A stretch of 34,394 nt of DNA from a virus. The notes beneath the pieces were generated by a model. That model was not told the DNA's origin, did no database searches, and saw nothing but the letters and a program-made list of their open reading frames with translations. The stretch covers positions 1 through 34,394 of IMG/VR virus record IMGVR_UViG_3300028196_000044; one strand, given 5' to 3'. Position numbers and translations under genes: made by a program. Numbering within the stretch: the first letter of the stretch is position 1; each line of letters begins with the position of its first letter. Shown piece by piece: positions 1,902 through 12,900 of this stretch.

Positions 1902-1919
1902 AAAGAGTAATTACTCTTT
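1902..1919. repeat. Perfect 18-bp palindrome before the DUF192 gene
   Basis: The sequence aaagagtaattactcttt is identical to its reverse complement. It lies in the 29-base gap between the fibre gene stop (1928) and the DUF192 gene start (1898), directly after the late-promoter box. By T4 late-promoter geometry the transcript would start near 1916, so the RNA would begin with GAGTAATTACTC, able to fold as a 4-bp stem with an AATT loop. It could protect the 5' end, tune translation, end transcription from upstream, or bind a dimeric protein. None of these is proven. Confidence 0.75.
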
Positions 1920-1921
1920 AT

Positions 1922-1929
1922 TATTTATC
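1922..1929 (-). promoter_or_regulatory. Late promoter for the DUF192 gene and gp17
   Basis: Read on the minus strand the site is GATAAATA, extended as TGATAAATAATA. It matches the NATAAATA late-promoter box of T4-like cyanophages (T4: TATAAATA). It overlaps the last codons of the fibre gene, and its 3' end is 23 bases from the DUF192 start codon, like the other four boxes in this window. Confidence 0.7.
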
Positions 1930-4189
1930 ACCCATCAAGTGCCACAGTAAGACCAAGTGTCATGCCAGGTAGTGACTGCCAAGAAGAACTGTCATAGAAT
2001 TCCATTTTCTTGGATGTTATATTATAAATCATAGCACCTTCAGTAAAAGCACCTGCTGAAGTAAGAGAATCTCTTTGCGTTGTTGTATAAAGCGGTGGAT
2101 AAAAAGCAGTTGCTGCTTTAATCGTAGATGCAGTAACAATTCCAGCATATGTTGCGTTACCAGAAGATAATATAGTTACACCAACTCCTGGACCACCTTC
2201 ATAATCATAACCAACATTTATTTCTGTTCTAGCAGTTACAATTCCAATAGAATCAACATTGATTTTATTCTCAGTCCTGAGAGTTCCACCAATAGTTACA
2301 TTACCATCAACATACTGATCTCCACCAACATAAAGAGCAAAATCAGTTCTTGCAGTAGTAGCAATACCGACATTTCTAGTTGTGCTAACACCAATAGCAT
2401 CAGATGACCATGTTCCACCTGCTCCGACACTGCCACCAAATTTAAATTTTTTGTGCTTATCCTTTCCAGTTTGATTTACATCAACAATAAGAGACATTCC
2501 CTGATAAGAACTAATGTCAGTAGCAATGCCAGCAATATCATCAAGATATTGAAGTCTTGTTTCTCCACCACCACCTATGGTAGAAATTTGTTGTTGAACT
2601 CTGTTGATAAAAAGTCTGTAATGCTCTTGTAATTGGTCTAGTGTGACAAAGTTTTGATCTAATGGTGTAAGGGGGTCTGAGGACTTATTAGAGGGGTCTC
2701 CTGGTAGATTGGGGTTATCTTCTTTAAGGAAAGACTTTACACTATCCTCATTAAATTTAGATATTGTATCTTCAATATAGTTAATTCTTTCTACTAACTT
2801 TTTATTTTTATTTTCTAATACATCTAATTGAAGTTTATCTAATACTTCTTTAATCTCTTCCTGAAGATCCCCAATATTTTCATTCTGTTTTTTGATATGA
2901 GATTCATTGACAGTAAAATTTACTTCAAGATCTTTCATTTGCTGAGAGATCTTGTTTCTAAATTTACCTACTTCATTTTTCAATCCAGAATGATATGACT
3001 CATTTGATTGTACTAAAACATTCTGTATTTCATTTAGATCTTCTTTTACGGTTTCCTCTATAAACCTAAACTTCTTATCAAATTTTTGTATTTCTCCAGA
3101 ATAATCTTCTAATTTTTTATTTTCATAAATTTCTCTCTTTTTAAAATCTTTATATAAAGATTCATATGTTTTTGATATAGAATTAATTTCTTCTTTACAT
3201 TCTCCAACTACAGTTTGAAGTTCTTCAAACCTATCAGATGCTTTCTTATCAATATTTTCAGATAGAGATTCTAATTTCTCTGTTACAGAATTAACTCTCG
3301 AAAGAACTTTTTCTTCTAATTCTTTTACTTCCTCTTCTGATTTTATTTTATTTTCAATCAGAAGATTATTATATTTTGGTATCTCAACTTCTGTAAATTC
3401 CTTTACAGTGGCATTTAAACTTTCTATTCTCTCTTGATAAGAATCTATTGAAGTTTTAATTTTTTCTTCAGTTCTTATTTCTGTCTCAGCAAAAAACTTT
3501 TTGTATTTTGGCAGTTCTTTTTCTACTAAGTCCGATATAGTATTATTGACTTCTTTAGTTGTTTTTCTAAAATCACTTTTGATATCAGAGATAATATTTT
3601 CATTAAGACTTTCAACAGTCTCTAAAGCATTAGCAACCTCTTTACTTGTATCAGATTTAATTGCATCAAAGTTCCCTTCAATCTCCTCTTTAAATTTTAC
3701 AAACCTATCATCTACTCTAATCTCTGATTCAGATACTAACTTTTTATATTTGGGTACATCAATATCAATAAAAGATTCTACTGAGTTTGAAAGATTAGAA
3801 AAATCTTCTTTAATTTTATCTACAGTTTCTCCATTAATAGAAGATATCTTAGATTCAATTTTAGATATAGATTCTTGTACAAAAAGAAGTTGTGCCATCA
3901 TGGCACTATCAAGATCTTCCTTTCTAATTAATTCTTTTAAATCTTCTTTTATTGTAAAGATCTCTTGAGAAACAGTTTCAACTTTTTCTAAGTTCTCTTT
4001 AAAACTATCAAATGTATTTGTAAAATCGGATAGTGATTTAATATGATTTAAATTATTTTTAAAAGTGTCAAATGCTTCCGAAACCTTCTCAATTTTTTCT
4101 GGACGTGCAGAATCATACTCCTCTTTTATCTGATCTAAAGGAGTTTTATTTGTATCTTTAAAAAAATCTGAAGGCTTCTTTAATGCCAC
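1928..4189 (-). CDS. Coiled-coil fibre-like virion protein between gp16 and the DUF192 gene
   Basis: The protein has 753 residues. Residues about 20-490 are rich in Glu, Lys, Ser, Asn and Ile with heptad-like spacing, and predict a long coiled coil. A motif PKYKK/PKYNN followed by an acidic ExEIRxEE-like stretch occurs at 146, 227 and 271. After a Pro/Ser/Asp linker (491-512), the C-terminal third (about 540-753) is Gly/Thr-rich with GIVTAR and GIVTAS motifs (649, 683). It ends in a block typical of phage fibre tips (TTTQRDSLT...GAMIYN...FYDSSSWQSLPG). A trimeric fibre or whisker attached to the neck or tail is the likely role, by fold type and late expression. T4 has no gene here. The start is GTG at 4189-4187, chosen because GGAG lies 11 bases upstream and the late promoter sits just before it. 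Attachment site and receptor cannot be told from sequence. Confidence 0.78.
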   Translation of the reverse strand: MALKKPSDFFKDTNKTPLDQIKEEYDSARPEKIEKVSEAFDTFKNNLNHIKSLSDFTNTFDSFKENLEKVETVSQEIFTIKEDLKELIRKEDLDSAMMAQLLFVQESISKIESKISSINGETVDKIKEDFSNLSNSVESFIDIDVPKYKKLVSESEIRVDDRFVKFKEEIEGNFDAIKSDTSKEVANALETVESLNENIISDIKSDFRKTTKEVNNTISDLVEKELPKYKKFFAETEIRTEEKIKTSIDSYQERIESLNATVKEFTEVEIPKYNNLLIENKIKSEEEVKELEEKVLSRVNSVTEKLESLSENIDKKASDRFEELQTVVGECKEEINSISKTYESLYKDFKKREIYENKKLEDYSGEIQKFDKKFRFIEETVKEDLNEIQNVLVQSNESYHSGLKNEVGKFRNKISQQMKDLEVNFTVNESHIKKQNENIGDLQEEIKEVLDKLQLDVLENKNKKLVERINYIEDTISKFNEDSVKSFLKEDNPNLPGDPSNKSSDPLTPLDQNFVTLDQLQEHYRLFINRVQQQISTIGGGGETRLQYLDDIAGIATDISSYQGMSLIVDVNQTGKDKHKKFKFGGSVGAGGTWSSDAIGVSTTRNVGIATTARTDFALYVGGDQYVDGNVTIGGTLRTENKINVDSIGIVTARTEINVGYDYEGGPGVGVTILSSGNATYAGIVTASTIKAATAFYPPLYTTTQRDSLTSAGAFTEGAMIYNITSKKMEFYDSSSWQSLPGMTLGLTVALDG

Positions 4190-9913: not shown

Positions 9914-12900
9914 TTATGCAAGAGCAATAACTTGTAGATTTTTAAGTTGAGGTGCAAGTGTTTGATTTGTCGATGTCATTACAAGTTTTATCCTATAAGT
10001 TCTAAAGGAAGGCAGATTATCTATGGAGAATTTATGTTTTTTAAAAATTGTATCCGATAGAGAAAATCCTCTTTTATTGGAACTTGATACTAAAACATCA
10101 GTTCTTCCGTCACTATCTTCTTCATTTATTATTAGACCTTTTTTATCTAAATTCAGATATCCTGGAAATGGTGTAAATACTGATTCAAATCCAGGATTTC
10201 CACTAATAGAATATAATGCTCTAAGATCACACTCTGATGGAATTTGTGCATCAACCATTATTTGTAAAGAAGTTGCAGGATTTTCTAATGATATTTCTTT
10301 AGAAATATATTGACAAGCACTAGGATCATTAAACATTGTATTTACTCTAGAATCCTCAGCATAATTTAAAATTTTACTATTAACTCTATTGGATATTGCA
10401 TAAATGACGGCTCTTTCAAGATCAATTTGAGGACTTACTTTTGAATTTGCCGTACCAAGGGAAAGTCTCATTTGGAAAGACTTATTACCCTCAACGGAAT
10501 TTAATCTGCGATCCTCATTCACTTTTGAGAAAATTGCTCTTGAAGAATCGAGATAATTATTTTCATTCAATGTAACATTTTCAAATCCAAAATTAATATA
10601 AGGAATTTCATTACCACTAATACTTTGTGATGTGGTAGTTCTTATTTGACCAGTAACTGTAGTCCCTTCAGGTGTAATACTGTGGATAGATGGTTTAATA
10701 ATTTCGAAAGGAATATTCTTAGTGGCCTTTACATTTTCTCCACCAGTAGAATCAGACGCACCTATGAATAGTTTGGGAAATCCTGCTGCTGAAGACGATC
10801 TATCCGCATTAGCAGATTGACCTGATGTTCCATACTTCTGTGACATATCAAGTTTAATATGATATGAATCCAGATTTATTGGATCTGCAACAGTTACATC
10901 ATTTAGATCATGTGTTTTATTAAGTCTTGCAAGACTTACTCCACTCAATTCATACTTATAAACAGGAGTACCGCTGGCATAAGTTTTGGGAGTTGTTCCT
11001 CTAGAAATATTACCACCAATTGATGATGCTGTTGTGGAAGTATATTCTATAACCTCCTCTCCAATCAGAATTAATCCAGTATTAGTTGACCCTACAGAAA
11101 CATTTTCAAACGTGTTGAATATATCTCCTGTTCCACTTGATACTGAAATCGGATCTGTGGAAGATTTGGTATATTCTGCCGTCAGTTTTGTTGGTTTAAT
11201 ATCTGGAAGGATTCCTACAATTCTAACAAAGTTATCATCAAAATTCATTCCATGATTTACGTGATTAACTTTAATGTGCAGTCCATCAGATACTGTTGTT
11301 GATGCGTTAATAGTGACATCTCCACCGAAAGCAGTTCCGTCAAATGTTCCACTATTCAATTCTCTAAGAGCACCAGTACTATCAAAGAAAGTTAATGTTC
11401 CTGCAGCACCAGTTACAAAATCTCCTTGAACATTATTAAGTATCAATTGTGAAGTAGCACCTATAGAGGTTAAAGTAAATCTAGAATTTCTACCAACACT
11501 AGCAGCACCAATAGTATTGATTGAAAGTACATCACCAACCTGATAACCATCTCCACCATTTCCACTAATTGTCGCTGCTATAGCAACACCATTTTGAATA
11601 GAAACATCAGCAACTGCACCAGATCCTGATCCAGAAATTGTAACTAAATTGACACCAGGGAAAGATGCAAATCCACCTGCAGGAGTATAACCTATTCCAG
11701 GATTTGTAATCGTCATAGTTCCTGTGGCACTTGCAGCAACTCCAACAAGATCTCCAGTTGCAGTATTATTAACTTGGGAGAAGGTATTACCCATAACATA
11801 ACGATTATCTGCTACTGTTGTTCCAAGTCCCACACGAATTTCTTTAGAAGAAATATTTAATGGATTTTCCATCAAATTAGCGATTTGCTTATTACCTTCC
11901 GAAAGTTCTGGATTGTATAGATCGACAGTTCCAGATTCTACAAAATCTGCTCTATAGAGAATGTACTTGAGATCCTCCCATTGACTTGCTTCCCATGTAG
12001 AAGCATTTTGAGATTTAAACAGAGATCCAAGATGAGGTTGATCAGAAATATATGTATCTGTAAGAGTATCATTTTCACCAACTCTCGAAATATAAACACT
12101 ATATTTCTTTGATTGTGATACTAAGCAAATTGCATATTCTTTTCCAGATTCAAGATAAACTGGATAATCAAATTGAAATGTAGTTGCAACAGATCCATCT
12201 GTTGATGTGTTAACATTATCTGGAGTTAATGTAATTTCAGATTCAGCGAAAAAACTAGGAGTTGGGTAACCATCCTTCATTGTTCTAATCTGAATCTTAA
12301 CACCAGTGTTTTCATCATCTTTTGTACGGAAGAAAATATCGCATTTTGTTACAAACACTCCTTCAGGATCGATATCTGGATCAACTAGGAACGATTGTGC
12401 TAGAGGATCATAATATCCAACGATATTCTCAGTTGTAACTGGGTTACCAGTGAGTCTTGTATCAACAATCTCAGTATCTAAAACTCTAGAAACGGCTTCG
12501 TTGTCAGAAAATATTTTTCTATTCTCAATGCGTGCATTTCTAATTGATAGAATTTGATCCTGAATTGTTTCTATAATACCTGAGGTTGTATATGCTTGCT
12601 CACCAATTGTTGTTGCAGCATTTTGATCATTTTCTGGATCATTTGTCAATGTGAATATATTAGTTCCAGTATCAAAATTAGGATTGTCTCCATTACTAGG
12701 ATCTGGAATAAATAGACTTCCAATTAAAGCAGAAGATGAGTCGCTAATCAATCTAACTTCTCCTACCTCTGCTTCTGCACCACTAGTTTGTCCGGTTAGA
12801 ATCATCCCAGTTTGAATACGACCAAAGAAATCTCCTTGTGGTTGATTTGAAAGAGAGTAAGTATCTACATTTAAAGTTGTGGAAGTTGATGAATACAATT

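Follow-up and report, generated by a model that had tools for sequence, protein, structure and literature searches.

The window, as the whole stretch of DNA analysed here is called, is a viral record of 34,394 bases. One end of it carries, on the minus strand, a late promoter motif and a palindrome between a gene with a tail-fibre-like C-terminus and a DUF192 gene, which is followed by the first codons of gp17 (Table 1). The product of the DUF192 gene contains a DUF192 domain (Pfam PF02643, E = 1.4e-24) and a DUF6321 domain (E = 1.4e-21). The start of gp17 lies at about position 50, 6 bases past the stop of the DUF192 gene; after its ATG the window encodes PDNVYLGNPNLKKAN, and the annotated terminase of phage Bellamy opens with MSEVYLGNPNLKKAN. 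Homologues of gp16, gp15, gp14 and gp13 are found further upstream, and the gene order matches that of S-SM2 and Bellamy, both Kyanoviridae. In S-SM2, Bellamy and SynMITS9220M01 the annotated start of the DUF192 gene overlaps the preceding gene by 4 bases and these phages therefore have no such leader; no cultured phage carrying the hairpin leader was identified in this analysis.

Table 1. Coordinates of the features at the palindrome locus.
Feature	Position	Strand	Remarks
gp17 (large terminase), first codons	1..50	-	Cut off at window end; identified by Bellamy terminase and gene order
DUF192 + DUF6321 gene, 613 aa	57..1898	-	PHROG 727 (unknown function); downstream of palindrome
Perfect 18-bp palindrome AAAGAGTAATTACTCTTT	1902..1919	.	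Self-reverse-complement; single copy in window
Conserved core GAGTAATTACTC	1905..1916	-	Predicted stem GAGU/ACUC, AAUU loop, at predicted RNA 5' end
Late promoter motif GATAAATA, NATAAATA type	1922..1929	-	Overlaps TGA stop of upstream gene (1930-1928)
Upstream gene, 753 aa	1928..4189	-	GTG start in ORF list; tail-fibre-protein-like C-terminus (PHROG 30742)

Read along the minus strand, the promoter motif is followed by ATAAAGAGTAATTACTCTTTTGA and then by the ATG (1898-1896), giving a promoter-to-ATG gap of 29 bp. The stop codon of the upstream gene overlaps the promoter, and most of the 29-base gap is therefore palindrome. In the T4 convention TATAAATA occupies positions -13 to -6, which would place the RNA start near 1916, inside the palindrome. 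Motifs of the NATAAATA type have been described as late promoters in cyanomyoviruses (in an excerpt of PMC2984593). A sequence-only reading of the window had reported a perfect 18-bp palindrome between a late promoter and the ATG of a DUF192-gp17 unit, 3 bases from the start codon, and had seen no such element in the other four promoter-to-start gaps. These descriptive claims are borne out. The palindrome equals its own reverse complement and stays single-copy in the window when up to 3 mismatches are allowed, the distance of 3 bases is that read from the minus strand, the domain and terminase assignments agree with the Pfam match and the Bellamy protein, and the remaining four gaps (promoters 33932, 19159, 9138 and 4223) are free of perfect palindromes that reach 12 bp.

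The size of the palindrome is in itself no evidence, because the window contains three perfect palindromes of 18 bp, and one or more of that length or longer turn up in 31 of 100 shuffles that preserve its dinucleotides. The other two (3145-3162 and 10921-10938) lie within long ORFs. More unusual than its length is its location in the 29-bp gap, a feature that was singled out post hoc.

The core recurs in relatives. A scan of viral contigs with the exact pattern ATAAATA-N2-8-GAGTAATTACTC gave 74 matches, 47 of them before a DUF192 gene. Promoter motif and core are separated by 5 bases in all 47, a spacing never seen in the other 27 matches (2, 3, 4, 6, 7 or 8 bases). Recurrence of the 12-base core at a fixed spacing before the DUF192 gene is not a product of chance. 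A relaxed pattern with a free loop between GAGT and ACTC gave 84 matches, whereas a control stem built from those letters (GTGA..TCAC) gave 6; 62 of the 84 precede the DUF192 gene, 6 a version of it whose N-terminus differs (MSNPRIPRK) and 9 an unrelated gene (MYHGLPATNG), with 7 others. Outside the DUF192 gene the relaxed stem occurs in about as many separate contexts as the control. Before the DUF192 gene and its variant, nine loop types of 4, 6 or 7 bases stand between the arms: AATT (41), AATC (6), AGGC (5), AGAC and ATTGCA (4 each), and the rarer ATTT, ATTTTAA, AGAT and AGGT (2 each). Both arms are fixed by these queries, and the scans are consequently uninformative on arm variation. In an unrelated phage group ATAAATAACAAAGAGTCGCTCACTC, with the same arms and a different loop, precedes a large gene (MYHGLPATNGE...; loci L390, L392, L393, L397, L401, L405, L406, L419 and L425).

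Loci were also gathered through the protein of the DUF192 gene, disregarding the leader. This yielded 316 loci, 277 with a matching N-terminus; 89 of the latter have no promoter motif within 45 bases, 21 have no ATG, and 167 have both, 102 of them distinct. The distinct loci have 60 distinct leaders, with GAGT-N3-8-ACTC in 20. A group termed class A comprises the 60 of these 102 loci whose gap measures 22 or 23 bases and starts A-N-A, and contains 21 distinct 20-mers. Conservation of the palindrome in relatives that keep promoter and gene, on which the earlier reading had made its proposal depend, is found in part: all four core pairs are retained in 45 of the 60 class A loci (14 of the 21 distinct leaders) and core pairing is missing in the other 15, which keep promoter and gene and include close relatives with GAATATCCACTC. 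The hairpin is thus optional. Three distinct leaders of the form GAGT..ATTC (five loci) keep the pairing through G-U and break the DNA palindrome.

Pairs were counted in 22 leaders, namely 19 of the 21 from class A (the misfits L053 and L123 omitted) and three longer ones. Outer pair 12-27 is broken in 10 of the 22 and 13-26 in nine, while A11-U28 is invariant, and the base preceding the stem may be A, C, G or T. This freedom of the preceding base and the frequent breaks in two of the three outer pairs make the 12-base core, and not the 18-base palindrome, the conserved unit. Leaders that have lost GAGT often still have ACTC, and another reason may thus account for retention of the 3' arm. Conservation of a Shine-Dalgarno (SD) sequence as the sole cause was ruled out, all four letters occurring before GAG.

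Conservation was measured in the unconditioned sample; an earlier figure conditioned on the stem is not used as evidence. Among 50 unique rows the pairwise difference is 0.142 and 0.111 in the two arms and 0.322 in the loop, with 0.215 in the 5' flank, 0.344 in the 3' flank and 0.475 at fourfold codon sites; the arms are conserved over the loop. A per-column test of the arms against all other columns gave p = 0.25 with all 21 leaders and p = 0.053 without the two misfits, which suggests a moderate contrast between the arms and the rest of the leader. Compensatory changes in related cyanophages had been named in advance as the check on a helix. Alignment of the 22 distinct leaders revealed none and no two-sided change of any kind, and pairing (84.4%) does not exceed that obtained with shuffled partners (86.5%). 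In a distant leader (L038) GAGA-ACTA-TCTC might be a two-sided change; it is uncounted, homology of the leader not being established. The conservation of the leader, as these alignments indicate, is real, yet covariation leaves the helix unproven.

The leader has a mobile history. When hairpin presence is mapped onto a protein tree with 81 rows, at least 17 changes are needed, and well supported branches force 10 of them. Two loci, L083 and L091, encode nearly identical DUF192 proteins behind promoter-leader stretches that differ wholly, a sign of recombination at the 5' edge of the gene. Because near-identical proteins carry different leaders, leaders appear to move between phages, presumably through recombination at the junction of the tail-fibre and DUF192 genes.

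We tentatively read the palindrome core as a short stem-loop in the leader of the late mRNA, weak and optional, that would shield the 5' end. RNA polymerase would begin the minus-strand transcript at G1916 or close to it and produce 5'-GAGUAAUUACUCUUUUGAAUG, in which bases 1-4 would pair with bases 9-12. With its 5' end paired, the RNA would be a poorer substrate for the host RNase E and RNase J, which enter at a free 5' end, and the stem would be weak enough for a ribosome to open. The bare core has a predicted folding energy of -1.4 kcal/mol at 37 C and -3.1 at 20 C; with the next six bases the values become -2.6 and about -4.6. In RNA starting at the G, the predicted probability of the outer core pair is 0.89-0.98 at 37 C. 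The core begins at G1916, the predicted start, and a protective hairpin is expected to have its stem at or near the RNA 5' end; a stem flush with that end is the form that should hinder 5'-end-dependent decay and still admit ribosomes. Cyanobacteria possess both RNase E and the 5'-3' exonuclease RNase J, and no close homologue of RppH is known in them (as stated in part of PMC10989914), the latter counting against shielding. A search of the window with Rfam (release 15) at the gathering score gave no matches.

The earlier reading had offered three roles for the element, and of these the 5'-terminal hairpin fits best: the core stem starts from the predicted +1, and loops vary where arms persist, although compensatory changes are lacking. 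Its suggestion of an operator setting this unit apart from other late genes fares poorly. A dimeric phage or host protein that controls the late promoter from the palindrome would account for the perfect DNA symmetry at the predicted start site in the window, and a podovirus MarR-type factor works downstream of a start site (in an excerpt of PMC9692554). Such a protein would call for symmetric half-sites at a fixed spacing, but relatives keep promoter and gene while altering the centre, the half-site spacing (4, 6 and 7) and the outer pairs, through one-sided changes that break the symmetry, and the palindrome is single-copy in the window. An RNA hairpin suits these data better, because loops vary, an arm changes to a G-U wobble and outer pairs are freely lost; we regard an operator as very improbable. 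Hardly credible is a weak intrinsic terminator of the upstream gene. The stem is flanked by A-rich sequence on its 5' side and T-rich sequence on its 3' side, but with only two G-C pairs it is not the G+C-rich stem of an intrinsic terminator, it was missed by a terminator scan whose rule needs three, and the T run past it is not kept (CAATTGA, TCTTGA); this candidate was rejected.

Control of access to the start codon, the remaining suggestion, would correspond to a switch like that of T4 gene e, in which read-through RNA from upstream promoters, with the full 7-bp stem, would be poorly translated and RNA from the adjacent promoter, without the 5' strand, would be translated. The layout resembles that of T4 e, soc, 49 and I-TevI (in an excerpt of PMC3014915), and the full stem has a predicted energy of -4.8 to -4.9 kcal/mol at 37 C and about -7.6 at 20 C. 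T4 offers a precedent, but the stem, which stops 3 (full) or 6 (core) bases short of the AUG, includes neither that codon nor a good ribosome site, and its 3' arm lacks an SD motif. Late RNA from the predicted start, G1916 by the T4 rule, would moreover retain the core, and of the three outer pairs available to read-through RNA alone, two are the ones often broken. The switch is disfavoured because these pairs are mostly unconserved, and we consider it unlikely. A leader without hairpin function is a more substantial, if still doubtful, alternative. GAG close to the start of the RNA and ACTCTT ahead of the ATG would each be kept, or inherited and recombined, and their complementarity would be incidental. 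The lack of covariation, the long palindromes of shuffled windows and the swapped leaders of near-identical genes agree with this, as do the survival of ACTC beyond GAGT, ACTCTT-like stretches in hairpin-less leaders and an enrichment of GAG near the start of leaders that precede other late genes (39 of 139 gaps; a mean of 15.2 in shuffles). Against it stand the nine loop types of three lengths between constant arms, constant by the terms of the query, and a start-proximal hairpin in 22 of 58 distinct family gaps (shuffle mean 2.8), these sequences being related and non-independent. A weak, dispensable hairpin leader is most likely what the element represents, rather than a new type of switch. 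The core recurs as a leader element of one gene within one marine T4-like phage group and, from its sequence, is probably an RNA hairpin; the hairpin would be small, and a shielding role is what we propose for it.

Hairpins at the 5' end are not a rule on all late leaders; that idea was rejected, as there is no general excess and only some genes keep one. A loose test on gaps outside the family found hairpins in 13 of 96 (shuffle mean 5.1, maximum 11), and after clustering in three of 54 representatives (mean 1.5), a count reached in 17% of 500 shuffles. The stretches of eight named phages showed no excess of 5' hairpins, with three in 60 distinct gaps and a shuffle mean of 2.7. In relatives, the DUF192 gene is preceded by a tail-fibre-like gene (MSKEDLPS...), and all 13 distinct leaders of the latter have, immediately past the promoter position, the hairpin GGGA-GAGAAA-TCCC; six of the 13 have a strict NATAAATA motif. 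The same hairpin is present in SynMITS9220M01; loci with it include L524 (leader before 15471), L023, L027, L106, L151, L152, L017 and others. The gp18 set comprises 80 loci with 54 distinct gaps, and in 12 loci the strict motif is absent, 11 of them having a variant that ends in CTAAATA and one being truncated. Leaders of gp18 (L437-L516) share TTTTCAGATAAACTGAGA, in which TCAG and CTGA may form a stem whose C-G pair has often become U-G; the TCAG-ATAAA-CTGA type satisfies the strict rule in 17 of the 54 gaps (shuffle mean 4.2, maximum 10), and its 5' arm begins before the predicted RNA start. The gp18 leaders of ACG-2014b, S-RIM2 and Syn30 (L521, L522 and L523; before 20001) have pairing of the CTAG...CTAG type, whose 3' side overlaps an AGGAG ribosome site in what is possibly a gene-e-like structure. 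A speculative and rather improbable extension is that neighbouring late genes of this marine T4-like group, namely the DUF192 gene (GAGU-loop-ACUC), the tail-fibre-like gene (GGGA-GAGAAA-UCCC) and gp18 (UCAG-AUAAA-CUGA), carry exchangeable start-site hairpins through which mRNA life or yield is adjusted for each gene and which pass between phages by recombination. If 5'-terminal leader hairpins do set the life of late mRNAs, phages of marine photosynthetic bacteria would have in them a concrete layer of control that is simple to test.

Post-transcriptional regulation is well studied in T4. A full-text literature search found little on leader structure in T4-like cyanophages, an abundant group, and no report of hairpins at cyanophage late promoters, which is not proof of absence. 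5'-terminal stem-loops stabilise bacterial mRNAs such as ompA; the present element resembles these in its stem, predicted to lie right at the RNA 5' terminus, and differs in that, from the predicted start, this stem would have only four pairs. The T4 gene e type, in which late RNA lacks the 5' strand of the leader hairpin (in an excerpt of PMC3014915), would by analogy be the best precedent for a hairpin next to a late promoter of T4 type. As in T4 e, soc, 49 and I-TevI, a T4-type phage carries a predicted leader hairpin at a late promoter, with the promoter at the 5' strand of the structure (same excerpt). In contrast, the conserved pairs here begin at the predicted start and would remain in the late RNA, the AUG and SD lie outside the stem, and the predicted stem is short and A/T-rich. 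The split ribosome sites of T4 genes 38 and 25 likewise place a hairpin shortly upstream of the AUG, with the SD upstream of the hairpin (same excerpt of PMC3014915), whereas here GAG/GGAG-like bases occur only inside the 5' arm and the base preceding GAG is free. Although it departs on one defining point from the narrower gene-e class, the element shows a modest fit to a known kind, the leader hairpins near T4-type late promoters.
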